DNA of 64,000 nucleotides. Source: an uncultured Verrucomicrobiales bacterium (GTDB lineage Bacteria; Verrucomicrobiota; Verrucomicrobiia; Verrucomicrobiales; Akkermansiaceae). The stretch spans positions 1-64,000 of the forward strand of contig CALGZA010000062.1 of NCBI GenBank assembly GCA_937934595.1, written 5' to 3'. The translations under genes were made by a program, and so were the position numbers. Of the stretch, positions 2,470 to 11,511 are shown one piece after another (position 1 is the first letter of the stretch; every line of letters starts with the position of its first letter). The notes under the pieces were generated by a model, which was not told the origin of the DNA, did not search any database, and saw nothing but the letters and a program-made list of their open reading frames with translations.

Positions 2470-2742
2470 CCACTCCCACTCCATCAGCCTCCTACTCTAT
2501 TCAATTAAAAATTGACATCACTCCCACGCTCCATATTCTTCTATAAGTGCAGAGTATCCCAACAAGAATCCTATTCTTAAACGCCTCTTTCATAGAGTTG
2601 CGCCCCTTCCTCTGCGCCTACGTCCGCCTTGCAGGCATTCTCTAAAGCTCCCCTTGCAGAGCTTATCCATCCAGATGAAATATCAACATCTACCGAGACC
2701 CATTTCTCAAATTCACTAACCATTTATTGTAAACAAAATATC
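2470..2742 (+). other. Leader region of the aromatic operon
   Basis: Together with the hairpin at 2437-2469 this fills the gap between pepP and the HPPD gene. An open frame extends upstream of the HPPD ATG to a TTG at 2629, but those residues do not resemble HPPD, so I treat this as untranslated leader. It contains the candidate promoter at 2512. No riboswitch was recognised. Confidence 0.5.
2512..2539 (+). promoter_or_regulatory. Candidate sigma70-type promoter for Phe/Tyr operon
   Basis: A perfect TTGACA at 2512-2517 is followed 16 bp later by TATTCT (2534-2539, 4 of 6 matches to TATAAT). It lies about 200 bp upstream of the HPPD ATG and just after the pepP hairpin, the expected place for the operon promoter. 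By-eye match only. Confidence 0.35.
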
Positions 2743-3867
2743 ATGAACGATTCATTAACAACATCATCATCTTCAACCATCAACGACAACCCACTCGGAG
2801 TCAAAGGATTTGACCACATCGAATTCATCGTAGACGATGCAGACGCTTGGCGTGATTACTACGTCAACCGCTTCGGCATGACTCTCCGCGCATACGGAAA
2901 TGCATCAACAGGTCTAGACGGAAGAAAAGCCTACCTAGTCGGACAAGGTCGTATCAACTTCCTCATCGCCCAAGCAGAAGGATCAGGACCCATGTTCGAT
3001 GAATACAAAGCACACTTTGACAAACACGGAAACGGAGTCAAAGACGTTGCATTCCTAGTGGAGGACGCTCTAGCCGCTCTAACAGAAGCCGTAAAACGCG
3101 GCGCCACAAACATCTGCGAGCCACGCATCGACAAAGAAAACGGCTACATCTCAACAGTCATCGCCGCCTACGGAGACACAGTCCATTCATTCGTTCAGCG
3201 AGATGACCGCGCCAGCGTCTACCTCCCTGGACTCATCCTAACAGAAGAATCCAAGCACGAGACAGACATCAACTTCGCCATGATTGACCACGTCGTCGCA
3301 AACGTCGAAGTCATGGACGAATGGGTAAATTTCTACGAAAACATCTTCGGATTCGAACCAACACGACACTTCGATATCAACACCGGAAAATCCGCTCTCA
3401 TGTCAAAAGTCATGGGCTCCACCTCAGGCTACATCAAAATGCCCATCAATGAACCATCATCAGGTAACTCACAAATCCAAGAATACCTAGATGAATACAA
3501 CGGCCCAGGTGTCCAGCACATCGCACTCCTCACCAAAGACATCGTCAAAACCATCGAAGCCATGCGCTCAACAGGTATGGACTTCCTAGACATCAATGAC
3601 TCATACTATGACGAAACATTCAAAAAAAGAATGGGAAACATCGACGAAAACATTGAAGACCTTCACCGTAACAACATCCTAGCAGACAAAGATGAAGGTG
3701 AATCTGGCTACCTACTTCAAATCTTTACCAAATGCATCTTTGAAAGACCCACCGTCTTTCACGAAGTCATCCAGCGCAAAGGCGGTGCAAAAGGCTTCGG
3801 CGAAGGAAACTTTAAAGCTCTATTTGAATCCATCGAAAGAGAACAAGCCCGCAGAGGAACTCTCTAA
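2743..3867 (+). CDS. hppD: 4-hydroxyphenylpyruvate dioxygenase
   Basis: The enzyme converts 4-hydroxyphenylpyruvate to homogentisate with Fe(II) and O2, the second committed step of tyrosine breakdown. It is 374 aa, the usual length, with two vicinal-oxygen-chelate halves (about 25-165 and 178-350). The three iron ligands are visible: H183 (IDHVVAN), H259 (GVQHIAL) and E341 (FHEVIQ). The C-terminus carries the family's GGAKGFGEGNFKALFESIE. I chose ATG 2743 because the family homology begins near residue 17 after it; the upstream TTG at 2629 would add 38 unrelated residues. It is the first gene of the operon, 66 bp before homogentisate dioxygenase. Confidence 0.95.
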   Translation: MNDSLTTSSSSTINDNPLGVKGFDHIEFIVDDADAWRDYYVNRFGMTLRAYGNASTGLDGRKAYLVGQGRINFLIAQAEGSGPMFDEYKAHFDKHGNGVKDVAFLVEDALAALTEAVKRGATNICEPRIDKENGYISTVIAAYGDTVHSFVQRDDRASVYLPGLILTEESKHETDINFAMIDHVVANVEVMDEWVNFYENIFGFEPTRHFDINTGKSALMSKVMGSTSGYIKMPINEPSSGNSQIQEYLDEYNGPGVQHIALLTKDIVKTIEAMRSTGMDFLDINDSYYDETFKKRMGNIDENIEDLHRNNILADKDEGESGYLLQIFTKCIFERPTVFHEVIQRKGGAKGFGEGNFKALFESIEREQARRGTL

Positions 3868-3933
3868 CAAAAATAATAATCACCCTCCCACATCACCTTA
3901 ATCACACAGAGAAGAACAACCCATCAATCGCAA

Positions 3934-5097
3934 ATGCCACACTACAGATCACTAGGTCAGATCCCACCTAAACGTCACACTCAGTTCCGTAAACCAAACG
4001 GAGAACTGCACTCAGAAGAAGTATTCGGCACAAACGGATTTTCAGGAACCTCATCCATACTATACCACCTCCACCCACCTACTATCGTAGTAAAACAAGA
4101 AGAACCAACCTGCGTCACCCCAAAGATAGCCATAGAAAAAAACCTCAAATGCATCAACCTCGCAGGATTCGACGTCCCACCAACAGATGACTTCCTAGAA
4201 TCCCGTAAAACAGTTTTTGTAAACAACGACCTACACATCGGTCTCGCCGCCCCCAAGCAGTCCATGAAAGACTACTTCTTTAAAAATGCAGATGCAGATG
4301 AAATGCTCTTCATACACGTCGGATCCGGAACTCTACATACCTGCTACGGTAAAGTCACATTCAGCTACGGTGACTACCTCATCATCCCACGAGGAACCAT
4401 CTATAAAATCGAATTCAATGACGAGAACAACAGAATGTTCTACGCAGAATCATTCTCACCCATCGTCAGCCCTAAACGCTACCGGAACAACTTCGGTCAA
4501 CTTCTAGAACACTCCCCATACTGTGAACGAGACTACCGTGGACCCACTAACCTAGAAACCTTCGATGAACATGGCGAATTCAAAGTCCTCATCAAAAAAC
4601 AAGGAATGATCCACCCCTTCACATACGGCACTCACCCCTTTGATGTAGTTGGCTGGGATGGTTACAACTACCCATACGCCATCTCTATACACGACTTTGA
4701 ACCCATAACAGGCCGCATTCACCAGCCACCACCAGTCCACCAACAATTCGAAGGCAATGGCTTCGTTGTCTGCTCGTTCTGCCCACGTAAATTCGACTAC
4801 CACCCACTCTCCATACCAGCACCATATAACCACTCAAACATCGACTCAGATGAAATCATCTACTACGTAGACGGTGACTTCATGTCACGGAACAACATAG
4901 ACAAAGGTGCTATCACGCTCCACCCAGGAGGCATCCCGCACGGCCCACACCCAGGAGCTGCAGAACGCAGTATTGGAAAAGAAGGCACTGAAGAACTAGC
5001 CGTCATGATAGACCCATTCAGCCCCATGATGCTTACAGAAGAAGCCCTCAAAATCGAAAAACCTGGATACAACCAGTCATGGCATGATCACGGATAA
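3934..5097 (+). CDS. hmgA: Homogentisate 1,2-dioxygenase
   Basis: The enzyme opens the homogentisate ring to maleylacetoacetate with non-haem iron. It is 387 aa, shorter than the roughly 440-residue human/Pseudomonas type. It has the cupin fold and the typical start (MPHYRSLGQIPPKRHTQFRK). Likely iron ligands are in YNHSNIDSDEIIYYV and in HPGGIPHGPHPG. It follows HPPD by 66 bp and precedes phenylalanine hydroxylase by 44 bp, so co-transcription is likely. No clear ribosome binding site precedes the ATG. Confidence 0.93.
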   Translation: MPHYRSLGQIPPKRHTQFRKPNGELHSEEVFGTNGFSGTSSILYHLHPPTIVVKQEEPTCVTPKIAIEKNLKCINLAGFDVPPTDDFLESRKTVFVNNDLHIGLAAPKQSMKDYFFKNADADEMLFIHVGSGTLHTCYGKVTFSYGDYLIIPRGTIYKIEFNDENNRMFYAESFSPIVSPKRYRNNFGQLLEHSPYCERDYRGPTNLETFDEHGEFKVLIKKQGMIHPFTYGTHPFDVVGWDGYNYPYAISIHDFEPITGRIHQPPPVHQQFEGNGFVVCSFCPRKFDYHPLSIPAPYNHSNIDSDEIIYYVDGDFMSRNNIDKGAITLHPGGIPHGPHPGAAERSIGKEGTEELAVMIDPFSPMMLTEEALKIEKPGYNQSWHDHG

Positions 5098-5141
5098 CCC
5101 TACTACTAAATGGCCTAATAAATCTAAAGAACTCTAACAAA

Positions 5142-5933
5142 ATGAAAAAAGCACCCAGCAAATACACCTCAAAGGAGCTAGACGAAAACGGCAATATCAG
5201 CTGGACGCCCACAGAGTCCGCCACATGGAAACTACTCTACAACATGCAAATGGAACGCCTACCAGGCCAAGCCTGTGAGGCCTACCTAAACGGACTCAAG
5301 CTCCTCAACATGCATGAAGACGAAATCCCTCAAATCCCAGAACTCACTAAACGCCTCAAGGCCATTACGGGCTGGAGCGTCGAGCCCGTCCCCTGCCTCA
5401 TCCCTTTTTCCAAGTTCTTCAATCTGCTCGCTAACAAAAAATTCCCCTGCGCCACATTCATGCGCACCCCAGAAGACCTCACCTACATCACAGAACCAGA
5501 CATGTTCCACGAGGCATTCGGACACCTCCCCATGCTAACTAACCCACACTTCGCCGCTTTCACAGAACGCTACGGAAAACTCGGCCTAGCAGCCTCTCCA
5601 AAAGAACGTATCTTCCTAGCCAGACTCTACTGGTTCACAGCTGAGTTCGGACTCATGAAAGACCCAGAATCTGGTAAATGGAAATATTACGGCGCAGGTA
5701 TCATGTCATCACCAGGTGAAGCAGATAACTGCCTCAGTAATAATTCAGTCCGCAAAAACCTAAACATACTAGAAGCCATGCGAACTCCATACAGAATCGA
5801 TATCGTGCAACCCATTTACTTCTTCATCGAACACTTTAAAAACCTAGAAAACTTTGACGAACAAGAAATCCTCGAGTCCATGAAAAAAGCTATAGAACTT
5901 GGACTTTTCGAACCCACATACGAACCTGCCTAA
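5142..5933 (+). CDS. phhA: Phenylalanine 4-hydroxylase
   Basis: This tetrahydropterin-dependent monooxygenase turns phenylalanine into tyrosine, feeding the pathway encoded around it. It is 263 aa, the bacterial catalytic-domain-only form without the regulatory ACT domain. Iron ligands are H123 and H128 ([11 protein letters not shown]) and E168 (WFTAEFGL). The pterin recycling partner phhB follows 19 bp downstream, a common pairing. The gene lies inside the operon after hmgA. Confidence 0.95.
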
Positions 5934-5952
5934 CCATTCAAAAAATAAATTT

Positions 5953-6291
5953 ATGCCTGAAAAATTATCCGAAATGAAATGTGAAGCCTGCCAAGCAGGT
6001 GCCCCAAAAGTTACCCAAGAAGATCTCCCCAAACTAAAAGCCATCGTCCCTGAATGGCAAGTCATAGACCGTAAAGGAATCCTCCAACTAGAACGCGTAT
6101 TCAAATTCAAAAACTTCAAACTCGCCCTAGCATTCACCAACAAACTCGCCAACCTCGCCGAAGAAGAATTCCACCACCCAGGAATACTTCTAGAATGGGG
6201 AAAAGTCACTGTCACTTGGTGGTCTCACTCCATCAAAGGCCTCCACCTTAACGACTTCATCATGGCATCAAAAACAGACACCATAGACTAA
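5953..6291 (+). CDS. phhB: Pterin-4a-carbinolamine dehydratase
   Basis: The enzyme dehydrates the 4a-hydroxy-tetrahydropterin released by phenylalanine hydroxylase so the cofactor can be recycled. It is 112 aa from ATG 5953; the frame is open upstream into phhA but those residues are not family-like. The signature [20 protein letters not shown] holds the paired active-site histidines and the conserved W. A short N-terminal segment with two cysteines (KCEACQAG) precedes the core and is common in bacterial members. It lies immediately after phhA. Confidence 0.93.
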
Positions 6292-6329
6292 TTCATCCAG
6301 AACCAAAAACTAACAATATTTCACAGCTC

Positions 6330-7481
6330 ATGTACATTCGGTCAGCAAAACGCACACCCATCGGAGCCCTCAGCGGCTCACTCTCATCTATACCCGCACC
6401 AAAACTAGCTGCATCATCCATCACCGCCACACTATCAGAGTCTAACACCCCCGCCAGCGAAGTAGACGAATGCTACATAGGTAATGTCCTCAGTGCAGGC
6501 ATAGGACAAGCCCCAGCAAGACAAGCAGCACTTGCAGCCGGCATCCCAGAATCCACTCCATGCACAACCATCAGCAAAGTCTGCGGAAGCGGCATGCAAG
6601 CCATCATCTCAGCTGCTCGCGCCATCAAATCAGGTGAAATAAAAACAGCTGTCGTTGGCGGCATGGAAAACATGAGCCAGGTCCCACACCTTCTGCCAAC
6701 CATGCGCAATGGCGTCAAACTTGGAAACTCAGAAATAATAGACTCCATGATACACGATGGACTATGGGACCCCTATAATGACCAACACATGGGAATGTGT
6801 GGTGAAGAATGCGCCACTAACTACCAATTCAGCCGCAAAGACCAAGACGACTTCGCCATCACAAGTTACCAGCGCGCACAAGCAGCTATTAGTAACGGTG
6901 ACTTCAAATCAGAAATTGCACCAGTCACACACAACACCAGAAAAGGAACAGTCACCATCGATACAGACGAATCACCAGCCCAAGTCAACTTCGACAAACT
7001 GCCAACACTCCGATCTGTATTCAAAAAAGACGGAACCATCACCGCTGCCAACGCCTCATCCATCAATGACGGTGCAGCCGCTCTAGTTATTTCATCAGAA
7101 CCCAGTAACAACGACCTAGGTAAAATCGTCGGCTGGTCCACTCATGCCAGAGAACCCATTAACTTCACCACCGCACCCATTGGAGCCATCCAGACTCTCT
7201 TAGATAAAACAGGCTGGTCAGCAGATTCCATAGACCTCTGGGAAATCAATGAAGCATTCGCCGTCGTCCCTCTCGCTGTAATCAAAGACCTCAAGCTTGA
7301 CCCAAACAAAGTCAATATCAACGGAGGTGCAATCGCTCTCGGACACCCCATTGGAGCCAGCGGCGCCAGAATCGTTGTCACCCTCGCTCACGCCATGAAA
7401 CATCACCAAGCCAAACGCGGCATTGCCGCCATCTGCATCGGTGGAGGTGAAGCACTCGCCATCGGCATCGAGCGAGACTAA
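6330..7481 (+). CDS. Acetyl-CoA C-acetyltransferase (thiolase)
   Basis: This thiolase is likely to split acetoacetyl-CoA into two acetyl-CoA, the last step for the acetoacetate made by fumarylacetoacetase. It is 383 aa, of usual length. Catalytic residues are C85 (KVCGSGMQA), H339 (LGHPIGASGAR) and C369 (AICIGGG). It starts 38 bp after phhB and ends 13 bp before the acyl-CoA ligase gene. The context makes degradation more likely than polymer synthesis, but a broader beta-ketothiolase role cannot be excluded. Confidence 0.92.
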   Translation: MYIRSAKRTPIGALSGSLSSIPAPKLAASSITATLSESNTPASEVDECYIGNVLSAGIGQAPARQAALAAGIPESTPCTTISKVCGSGMQAIISAARAIKSGEIKTAVVGGMENMSQVPHLLPTMRNGVKLGNSEIIDSMIHDGLWDPYNDQHMGMCGEECATNYQFSRKDQDDFAITSYQRAQAAISNGDFKSEIAPVTHNTRKGTVTIDTDESPAQVNFDKLPTLRSVFKKDGTITAANASSINDGAAALVISSEPSNNDLGKIVGWSTHAREPINFTTAPIGAIQTLLDKTGWSADSIDLWEINEAFAVVPLAVIKDLKLDPNKVNINGGAIALGHPIGASGARIVVTLAHAMKHHQAKRGIAAICIGGGEALAIGIERD

Positions 7482-7494
7482 GTTAATCACTCAC

Positions 7495-9411
7495 ATGGAA
7501 AACATCATCTGGCATCCAACAGAACACGCATGGACTGAGCATTCTCATATTGCCAATTTCATGCGTGATCAAGGCTTCGAAATAGACCAATTTCCAGCTC
7601 TGCACAAAAAATCAATCACAGACCTAGAATGGTTCTGGAACGCAGCCATAGATGACATGGGCCTAGAATGGTCTACTCCATACTCTAAAGTAATAGACCG
7701 CTCATCAGGATTCCCCTACACCAAATGGTTTACTAACGGCCAGATCAACATCACTCATAACTGCATTGATCGCCACGTCCTCAATGGAAACGGAAACGAT
7801 ACAGCACTCATACACGAGCCAGACTCCGGCTGCCAAGACGCCCGCCATGTCAGCTACACTGAGCTTAAAAACCTTGTTGACCAATGCGCAGGAGCTCTAA
7901 AGCACACAGGCATTAAAGAAGGTGAATCCGTTGGCCTCTACGCCCCCATGTCCGTTGAAACAGTCGCAGTCATGTTTGCCTGCTTCAAGCTCGGACTTCG
8001 CTTCGTCCCCATATTCTGCGGCTTCGGAGAACATGCCATCATTGACAGACTAGAAAGCTGTGGCGCTCGCATCCTATTTGCCAACAAAAAACTCCAACGC
8101 AGAGGAAAATCAATCCACACTTCAGACACAGTAGAAAAAGCTCTAAATCATCTGCCCAATCTAAAACAAACCATCTACCTAGACACCCAAGAATGGCAAA
8201 AATTCATCACTCAGTCCACTCCCCTAACAGAATCTAACAACCACACAGAAGCAGAAACACCTTGCATGGTGATCTACACCAGCGGAACCACAGGAAAACC
8301 AAAAGGCACCATCCACACCCACGCTGGAGTTCTCGCCACAGTGGGCAAAGAACTACGCTACGCATTCGATGTTCATCCCGGAGAACCCTTTTTCTGGGTC
8401 ACAGATATTGGCTGGATGATGGGCCCCTGGGAGCTCATCGGTTGCCTTCTCTACCGTGCACCCGTAGTCATGCTAAACGGCGCTCCAAACCACCCACACC
8501 CAGACAGAATCTGGGAAATAGTCGAAAAAAACAAAGTAATAACCCTAGGCATCTCCCCCACAGCGATTCGCCTATGCATGAGCCAAAAAGAATCCAAAGG
8601 CCCCAAAGCTTACGACGTATCAAATTTAAAAATCATGGGCTCAACTGGCGAAGCTTGGGACTCAGATTCATACCAATGGGCATTTGAACAAATAGGAAAA
8701 ACCAACGTCCCCATCATGAACATTTCTGGAGGCACAGAAATCATGGGCTGCCACCTCCAGCCATACCCAGTCATGCCCATAAAACCGCTAACCCTCGGCA
8801 TGGGAGCCCTAGGAATGGACGTGCAAGTATTTAACGAGGACGGCCTATCTGTAAAAGAAGAAGTCGGTCATCTCGTCTGTTGCCAACCAGCTCCCTCAAT
8901 GACTAAAAGCTTCCTAGGAGACAACCAACGCTACCTCGACACCTACTTCCAAAAATTCGGAAACCAAATCTGGTACCATGGTGACTGGGCTAGCATAGAC
9001 TCCGATGGCTACTGGTTCCTCCACGGCCGCACTGACGACACCATTAAAGTCGCAGGAAAACGCATCGGCCCAGCAGAAGTCGAAAACGCTCTGATCTCAC
9101 ACCCCGCCGTCTCACAGGCAGCCGTCATCGGAATCCCTGATCCCATAAAAGGCCAAACACTTGTCTGTTTCACAGTGTGCACATCAAACATAGATGAAGA
9201 AACACTCAGAAATTATGTGGCGGACCGCATGGGTAAACCACTCAAACCTAAACACGTTTACATCATCCCCGAACTCCCTAAAACCCGCTCAGGAAAAATC
9301 GTCCGCTCTACTATTCAAAAAATCTACCTAGGTGAAAACCCAGGAGACCTCAGCAGTATCGAGAACCCAGATAGCCTCACCAACATACAAAAACTCACCA
9401 ATCAAACCTAG
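7495..9411 (+). CDS. Acyl-CoA synthetase, probable acetoacetyl-CoA ligase
   Basis: This is a 638-aa AMP-forming ligase of the acetyl-CoA synthetase superfamily. The N-terminal cap domain (WHPTEHAWTEHSHIANFM) is followed by the ATP-binding loop YTSGTTGKPKG (from Y261), the GRTDDTIKVAGKRIGPAEVE hinge region and the catalytic lysine K601 (TRSGKIVRS). The start ATG at 7495 is 13 bp after the thiolase stop. Lying between thiolase and fumarylacetoacetase genes, its natural substrate is inferred to be acetoacetate. From sequence alone acetate or propionate are possible; the protein looks closer to Acs-like ligases than to classical AacS. Confidence 0.85.
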   Translation: MENIIWHPTEHAWTEHSHIANFMRDQGFEIDQFPALHKKSITDLEWFWNAAIDDMGLEWSTPYSKVIDRSSGFPYTKWFTNGQINITHNCIDRHVLNGNGNDTALIHEPDSGCQDARHVSYTELKNLVDQCAGALKHTGIKEGESVGLYAPMSVETVAVMFACFKLGLRFVPIFCGFGEHAIIDRLESCGARILFANKKLQRRGKSIHTSDTVEKALNHLPNLKQTIYLDTQEWQKFITQSTPLTESNNHTEAETPCMVIYTSGTTGKPKGTIHTHAGVLATVGKELRYAFDVHPGEPFFWVTDIGWMMGPWELIGCLLYRAPVVMLNGAPNHPHPDRIWEIVEKNKVITLGISPTAIRLCMSQKESKGPKAYDVSNLKIMGSTGEAWDSDSYQWAFEQIGKTNVPIMNISGGTEIMGCHLQPYPVMPIKPLTLGMGALGMDVQVFNEDGLSVKEEVGHLVCCQPAPSMTKSFLGDNQRYLDTYFQKFGNQIWYHGDWASIDSDGYWFLHGRTDDTIKVAGKRIGPAEVENALISHPAVSQAAVIGIPDPIKGQTLVCFTVCTSNIDEETLRNYVADRMGKPLKPKHVYIIPELPKTRSGKIVRSTIQKIYLGENPGDLSSIENPDSLTNIQKLTNQT

Positions 9412-9416
9412 AAAAC

Positions 9417-10256
9417 ATGCTCAAAAGTTTCCAAGCCTTTCACCATTCCATCATAGACTACGCCGGCCTATTCCCTCCAGCATCTCTTAATTTAGAACAA
9501 GCAGTCTCTGACTACCTAAACTACCTATCTCATGAAGATCAATGGATGCTCGGAGCCTTCATTCTCCCCGCTAATAAAATCTCCGCACTATCTAACCTAT
9601 TGAAATCAATACCCACCTCCAACCCCATCCCCATCTCACTCATCTCCTCAGACCTAGAAAAAGACATCCATGAATTTCACAAATTCGCCAGTGATACTGA
9701 CCATGAAATCCATCTCAGCTCCATCGAAATAAAAGAAGAACACTTCAAACTTCACCCCAGCAAGAACATCACCTACATCGAACCCACAGACCTAAATAAC
9801 CTAACAGACATCCTAAATATCGCACAAGTCAACAACCTCGGCATCAAACTACGCTGCGGCGGAGTCAAACCATCCATGATACCAAGCTCACTAACAGTTG
9901 CCAGTGTCATTGAAAACTGCACAAGCCGTGCCATACCAATGAAGTTCACAGCCGGTCTTCATCACCCATTCCGCCATCACTCAGACGCACACAGCACCAT
10001 GCTACACGGCTTCATCAATATTTTCGCCGCCACTATCCTCAGCAGAAAACAGCAACTCAACCAAAGTCAGATCAACGAAATACTAGAAGATCAATGCTCA
10101 AAATCATTCATCTTCAACGAACACGGCCTGACATGGAACAACCTTAATATCTCAACCGAAGACATTGAAAACCTCCGCCAGACTCAAGCACACTCATACG
10201 GGTCATGCAGCTTCACAGAACCACGCCAAGACCTAACAGATCTAGGCTGGATGTAA
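9417..10256 (+). CDS. Conserved protein of unknown function in the Phe/Tyr operon
   Basis: 279 aa, no signal peptide or membrane segment, so probably cytosolic. I do not recognise a named domain. Distinct motifs are [10 protein letters not shown] near residue 15, IKLRCGG near 145, and [14 protein letters not shown] followed by [14 protein letters not shown] near 180-210. Alternating strand/helix segments ([38 protein letters not shown]) suggest a TIM-barrel-like fold with a histidine-rich site. It sits 5 bp after the ligase and 25 bp before fumarylacetoacetase, so it is surely co-transcribed. Maleylacetoacetate isomerase is otherwise missing from the operon, and this protein is the positional candidate. 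It shows no GST-like features, so that role is only an inference. Confidence 0.85.
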
Positions 10257-10281
10257 CTTAAATAATCACAAACAAAATATC

Positions 10282-11511
10282 ATGCCATCATCATTTATAC
10301 CTACGACAGAAACATCAGACTTCCCCATCCAGAACCTTCCATACGGTGTTTTTAAAACCAGTTCATCCACACACATAGGCGTCGCCATCGGAGAACATAT
10401 CCTCAGCCTAACAGAACTAGACAAAAAAGGACTACTAACAGAATCAGGAAAACCCATAGGCTGCTTCTCTTCAGCCACACTCAATAACTTCATGGAAGAA
10501 GGCCCAGCTATCTGGAAACAAGTCCGTAACCGTGTCACAAACTTACTAGACTCAGAAAACCCTCAGCTCCGTGATGACAACAACCTACGGAGCAACGTCT
10601 TCTTCAACCAAGACAAAGTCAACATGCTACTCCCCGTTAACATCGGTGACTACACAGACTTCTACGCATCTCGCGAACACGCCACTAACGTAGGCACGAT
10701 GTTTCGAGATCCTGATAACGCTCTACTACCAAACTGGATGCACCTTCCCGTTGGCTATCACGGCAGATCCAGCTCCATAGTAGTCGACGGCACACCCATC
10801 CGCCGCCCTATGGGACAAACCAAAGCTGATGATTCAGACACACCAACATTCGGCCCCTGCAGACTGCTCGACTTCGAACTAGAAATGGGATTATTCCTCG
10901 GCCAAGGAAACAAACTAGGCACCAGAATCCCTATCAATGAAGCCAAAGAAAAACTCTTCGGTATGGTCATCCTTAACGACTGGAGCGCACGCGATATCCA
11001 AAAATGGGAATACATACCACTCGGACCATTCCTTGCCAAAAACTTCGCCAGCACCATATCCCCATGGGTCGTACCCATGGACGCCCTCGAACCATTTCTA
11101 ACAGAAGCACCAAAACAAGAAAAAGAAGTCCTAGAATACCTTAATCACGACAGACAAACCTATGACATCAAACTCGAGGTAACACTGAACAACCACACCA
11201 TCGCTCGGTCAAACTTCAAATACCTCTACTGGACTCCAGAACAATTCGTTGCTCACCACAGCGTTACAGGCTGCAACATAAACCCAGGAGACCTAATGGG
11301 CTCAGGCACCATCAGTGGCCCCACACCAGACAGCTACGGCAGTATGTTAGAACTCTGCTGGAAAGGAACCAAACCCTTAACGCTGCCTGATGGAACAGAA
11401 CGCAAATTCCTCCAAGATGGAGACGTCGTTAACATGCACGCCTTCTGCCAAGGTGATGGCTTCCGCATTGGCTTTGGAAACTGCTCTGCTGAAATATTAC
11501 CAGCATGCTAA
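10282..11511 (+). CDS. fahA: Fumarylacetoacetase
   Basis: The enzyme hydrolyses fumarylacetoacetate to fumarate and acetoacetate, completing tyrosine breakdown. It is 409 aa and carries both the SH3-like N-terminal domain (about 15-115) and the FAH catalytic domain. Likely metal ligands lie in [16 protein letters not shown], in LLDFELEMG and in [20 protein letters not shown] holds the conserved lysine. It is the last gene of the operon. It converges with the - strand yggS gene only 9 bp away, with no room for a separate terminator between the stops. Confidence 0.95.

Follow-up and report, generated by a model that had tools for sequence, protein, structure and literature searches.

The window, a stretch of 64,000 nucleotides from a contig of an uncultured Verrucomicrobiales bacterium (CALGZA010000062.1), carries on its forward strand an operon for phenylalanine and tyrosine breakdown. 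It begins with HppD, a 4-hydroxyphenylpyruvate dioxygenase (2629 to 3867; TIGR01263, 395 bits), followed by HmgA, a homogentisate 1,2-dioxygenase of a short, divergent type with 387 residues (3934 to 5097; PF20510, 54 bits), PhhA, a phenylalanine 4-monooxygenase (5142 to 5933; TIGR01267, 274 bits, cut-off 265), a pterin-4a-carbinolamine dehydratase identified by the Pfam and NCBIfam search (5899 to 6291), and a thiolase (6330 to 7481; TIGR01930, 420 bits). An acyl-CoA ligase, probably an acetoacetyl-CoA synthetase (7423 to 9411), lies directly upstream of an unnamed gene, here called X (9417 to 10256), and FahA, a fumarylacetoacetase (10282 to 11511; TIGR01266, 592 bits, cut-off 375), lies directly downstream of it. 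A previous sequence-only reading of the window had listed the same gene content, to which two qualifications apply. HmgA is divergent, its 59 bits with TIGR01015 falling short of the 510.75 that NCBIfam sets as cut-off, and the ligase is given its acetoacetate role by context, because no best curated model reaches its cut-off. A ligase is also found 3' of fahA in loci of Krumholzibacteriia and Planctomycetota. The short HmgA type is found alongside X and FahA in most of the X-bearing genomes tested, and automatic annotation may overlook it.

X starts with ATG and encodes 279 residues, exactly as that reading described, with 5 bp separating it from the end of the ligase gene at 9411 and 25 bp from the fahA start at 10282, so that the tight spacing noted there is right as well. 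Since relatives with up to about 40% identity and invariant alignment columns occur in many phyla, X is not a chance open reading frame. Neither X nor 80 of its relatives match any Pfam or NCBIfam family (E<=0.1), and a sequence search for relatives with solved structures gave none that is credible. A single 16-bit match of X to DUF1617, below the cut-off, is a chance match and was rejected. The public annotation of relatives on plasmids is "hypothetical protein". The composition is not unusual. A search of 11 genomes from the host's genus turned up no X, and the other members of the host's family in our phylum sample showed neither X nor FahA. The operon (2629 to 11511) is therefore patchy in the host lineage, which probably reflects gain or repeated loss.

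The scan of one genome per species found at least 572 relatives of X, in Bacteria and Archaea. Gene context was counted for those of the matches listed that have 2 kb or more of sequence after X, 77 loci in all, and in 70 of these fahA is the next gene downstream on the same strand, the gap having a median of some 72 bp. In all of the remaining seven, fahA is located elsewhere in the same genome. The sequence-only reading had named homologues widespread without homogentisate genes as a finding that would count against its idea, and this is not what is seen. No fahA was found in the assemblies of three further X genomes, all three of which are fragmented. The linkage spans Actinomycetota, Bacillota, Cyanobacteriota, Chloroflexota, Planctomycetota, Acidobacteriota, Verrucomicrobiota, Bacteroidota, and Archaea. 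Of 38 genomes tested for HmgA, six of them without X, 33 have it. Among 388 Verrucomicrobiota genomes, FahA was found in 14 and X in eight, all eight within the 14 (hypergeometric probability 2.5e-13, kinship being ignored). The trees of X and FahA are correlated, with r=0.77 compared to at most 0.27 in shuffles, a value that shared descent alone also raises.

The gene orders narrow down the role of X. Marine Group III archaea encode hppD-hmgA-X-fahA as a single block, plasmids of Streptomyces, Rhodococcus, and Pseudonocardia carry hmgA-X-fahA, followed in two Streptomyces by a CoA transferase, and Priestia plasmids have the order hppD-X-fahA-aminotransferase-hmgA. Plasmid-borne X was found in Actinomycetota, Priestia, and one cyanobacterium only. 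As the compact hmgA-X-fahA(-CoA transferase) operons are otherwise complete, isomerization of maleylacetoacetate is the only step left for X, although context by itself is compatible with any FahA-linked activity, isomerization being one of them.

To our knowledge, the only molecularly identified isomerase for the maleylacetoacetate step is the glutathione enzyme MaiA, a zeta-class glutathione S-transferase (GST) (TIGR01262, EC 5.2.1.2). The MaiA family is glutathione dependent, using the thiol of glutathione for the isomerization. X also occurs in lineages that presumably lack glutathione. The operon had been described as having no GST-type isomerase, and this is true for the whole assembly, which is 95.9% complete and has no TIGR01262 match at E<=1, so that such an enzyme elsewhere in the host genome, the other finding named as counting against the idea, is rejected. 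No MaiA above the cut-off was found in any of 62 genomes, 56 of which bear X, with weak GST-like matches in four. On plasmids of the glutathione-using Pseudomonadota, where X was not found, maiA lies beside fahA in the place of X.

AlphaFold2 predicts an eight-stranded TIM barrel with high confidence both for X of the window (pLDDT 96.4) and for a Paenibacillus relative (pLDDT 96.1). The alignments behind the two models overlap, so the models are not independent tests. A Foldseek search alone gave no match under 1e-3, and it was only the realignment to PDB structures that singled out 2-deoxyribose-5-phosphate aldolase (DERA, DeoC), a class I Schiff-base aldolase, as the nearest solved fold to both models. 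DERA ranks first with a Z score of 13.5 for one model (rmsd 3.6, 209 aligned residues; next family 10.9) and of 17.6 for the other (rmsd 3.3, 233 aligned residues; next family 12.8). The predicted barrel is the wrong fold for the tyrosine transaminase that is also missing from the operon, and Priestia already encodes an aminotransferase next to X, which excludes X as a candidate for that step.

The conservation pattern is in line with an active site in this barrel. Over 97 sequences of the X family, Asp14, Glu104, Lys144, Arg146, Lys176, Thr178, His182, Asn201, and Cys264 are invariant, and Glu122 is present in all but one. Asp14 (codon at 9456 to 9458) is placed on strand 1, Glu104 (9726 to 9728) on strand 4, the Lys144-x-Arg146 pair (9846 to 9854) on strand 6, and the motif KFTAGLHH (residues 176 to 183; 9942 to 9965) on strand 7 and the following loop, with Lys176, Thr178, and His182 invariant and the rest nearly so. 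Glu122 is likewise on a barrel strand, and the motif SYGSCS (residues 260 to 265; 10194 to 10211) closes strand 8, with Cys264 directly after the strand. Cys264 is further conserved in all 22 canonical Bacteroidota members. The sequence-only reading had drawn attention to a histidine-rich stretch of 13 residues, which corresponds to residues 176 to 188. Its His182 is indeed invariant, but Glu104, Lys144, Arg146, Lys176, Thr178, and Cys264 are equally so. With the spacing seen in K-x-R, K-x-T, and S-x-G-x-C, alternate residues point to the same side of a strand, which is what an active site would be expected to show.

Going by the order of strands in the predicted models, the lysines of X on strands 6 and 7 may correspond to those of DERA, Lys144 to the lysine that forms the Schiff base (Lys167 in Escherichia coli) and Lys176 to the helper lysine Lys201. 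A profile-profile comparison of X with ten-odd DERA sequences (hhalign) is not significant and its residue register shifts with the settings, so that this mapping rests on strand order in the models. None of 81 X members matches the DERA family PF01791 at E<=0.1, while the E. coli DeoC control scores 167 bits. X further differs from DERA in its own invariant motifs, KxRxGG, KxTAGLHH, and SxGSCS, and in having no deo gene context.

We consider X likely to be a glutathione-independent maleylacetoacetate isomerase that is unrelated to the GST-type MaiA. That X replaces the isomerase was the main idea of the earlier reading, and the predicted activity is supported by gene context, the exclusion of MaiA, the fold, and residue conservation, from which we infer the reaction and its mechanism. 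In the proposed pathway, HmgA opens homogentisate to maleylacetoacetate, the cis form, X would convert the C2=C3 bond from cis to trans, yielding fumarylacetoacetate, and FahA cleaves this product to fumarate and acetoacetate. Such a cis-trans change requires the bond between C2 and C3 to become single for a time. Lys144 could form an imine with a keto group of the substrate, serving as an electron sink, with Lys176 lowering the pKa of Lys144. The thiolate of Cys264 would then attack the activated double bond in the manner of glutathione in MaiA, the resulting single bond would rotate, and expulsion of Cys264 would yield the trans product, while Arg146 and other conserved basic residues may hold the two carboxylates. 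Engineered DERA variants perform Michael additions via an imine, as indicated by the title of PDB entry 7p76, which makes such chemistry plausible on the scaffold of X. More tentatively, X may found a class of isomerases that need no thiol cofactor, built on a class I aldolase-type barrel with a lysine imine as the electron sink and Cys264 in place of glutathione, and used by many organisms without glutathione, including some archaea.

Several lineages encode FahA but neither X nor MaiA. Six Verrucomicrobiota genomes are of this kind, three of which keep HmgA, which has HppD and thiolase close by. In one of these three (G177), a relic of the X C-terminus, FLCRSFGSCSFLEP, interrupted by stops, is found at positions 7417 to 7590 of locus L133. 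It reads SFGSCSFLEP and lies directly upstream of an intact fahA, so X has decayed there, with HmgA, HppD, and thiolase retained elsewhere in the genome. Among 80 Bacteroidota genomes with FahA, picked regardless of X, no MaiA was found and 28 have matches to the X family, 22 with intact motifs and six degenerate, leaving 58 of the 80 with neither canonical X nor MaiA. No conserved neighbor that might be a third isomerase was seen beside fahA in 14 Bacteroidota loci without X (L238 to L251). The absence of X from several Verrucomicrobiota and most of the sampled Bacteroidota indicates that X is one solution and not a universal one, and that the others either use a third isomerase or can do without the step.

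The six low-scoring Bacteroidota matches (L232 to L237; genomes G674, G624, G628, G532, G563, and G612) were dropped as X members, their active-site motifs being gone. This branch keeps Glu104, Lys144, Lys176, Asn201, and Arg254 and has lost Arg146, TAGLHH, and Cys264. It adjoins two HU-like genes and a coproporphyrinogen-oxidase-like gene, and a canonical X is found in the same neighborhood in genome G524 (locus L262, 2809 to 3801). Judged by position, the degenerate forms look orthologous to canonical X, with an active site that has eroded or been put to another use.

X could instead act on a keto-enol tautomer of maleylacetoacetate or fumarylacetoacetate, on succinylacetoacetate, or on a damaged intermediate, with the isomerization being nonenzymatic or taking place elsewhere. 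This would easily explain the genomes that have HmgA and FahA with neither isomerase, and it agrees with a gene context that only links X to FahA. We nevertheless regard it as unlikely, as X takes the one place left open in minimal operons whose pathways are otherwise complete and is never seen together with a MaiA above the cut-off, which fits an isomerase better than a repair enzyme.

A still less probable role for X is that of a noncatalytic or semicatalytic partner of FahA, in a complex, as a chaperone, or as a channel, with FahA itself taking maleylacetoacetate. The tight pairing of X with fahA and the correlation of their trees would fit such a partner, as would the many Bacteroidota in which FahA is accompanied by neither X nor MaiA. 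In Bacteroidota, however, X is about 3 kb away from fahA in five genomes and elsewhere in two, and invariant acidic, basic, and thiol residues at the active-site positions of a TIM barrel are unexpected of a structural partner. In addition, FahA of the window is an ordinary relative of mammalian FAH, aligning to its structures over the full length. Direct use of maleylacetoacetate by FahA, the third option of the sequence-only reading, may hold in some genomes, given the three Verrucomicrobiota with HmgA and the 58 Bacteroidota that have neither X nor MaiA, but it would leave unexplained the retention of X next to fahA in so many phyla. Although the DERA-like fold and the conserved lysines would suit a lyase or aldolase-type enzyme that cleaves or hydrates maleylacetoacetate in parallel to FahA, this is very improbable, since FahA accompanies X wherever the assemblies permit a check and a parallel lyase would sometimes replace it.

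Older studies (1977 and 1985) reportedly described glutathione-independent gentisate and homogentisate pathways in Gram-positive bacteria. An isomerase function for X, our preferred reading, would also fill a gap in the literature on Rhodococcus. Rhodococcus ruber Chol-4 grows on homogentisate with an hmg cluster in which the dioxygenase hmgA and the hydrolase hmgB are described and no isomerase is named (PMC6498646), and a proteomic study of R. globerulus on phenylalanine reports HmgA and HmgB (PMC11889516). No description of a gene for a glutathione-independent maleylacetoacetate isomerase was found in the literature searched, which lay mostly outside subscription journals, and an earlier description is possible. 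The X family is probably an undescribed one, adjacent to fahA in many bacteria and some archaea, that provides the long-missing isomerase of microbes not using the glutathione version. If so, it would supply a step missing from tyrosine and phenylalanine breakdown where organisms lack glutathione, give a name to a family that comprises hundreds of "hypothetical proteins" outside Pfam and NCBIfam, and correct pathway reconstructions, in which many genomes only seem to lack EC 5.2.1.2. The Bacteroidota with neither X nor MaiA point to a further unexplained isomerase step.

Three known isomerases offer a comparison. The mycothiol-dependent maleylpyruvate isomerase of the gentisate pathway in Actinomycetota (NagL/GenC, ncgl2918 in Corynebacterium; PMC3937715) is a glutathione-free answer to an analogous cis-trans step, as proposed for X. 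No match to this family was found for X or 80 relatives in the Pfam and NCBIfam searches (E<=0.1). X also occurs in phyla that we take to be without mycothiol and so probably needs none. Maleate cis-trans isomerase, a member of the Asp/Glu racemase superfamily, carries out a cofactor-free cis-trans isomerization by means of an enzyme cysteine, and it differs from X in fold and substrate. MaiA shares with X the proposed reaction and the position in the pathway, whereas the folds differ, MaiA having the GST fold (a MaiA control yields the GST domains) and X being modeled as an eight-stranded TIM barrel, with no GST or TIGR01262 match for X or its 80 relatives (Pfam and NCBIfam, E<=0.1). If X is the isomerase, a textbook reaction would have two chemical solutions that are unrelated to each other.
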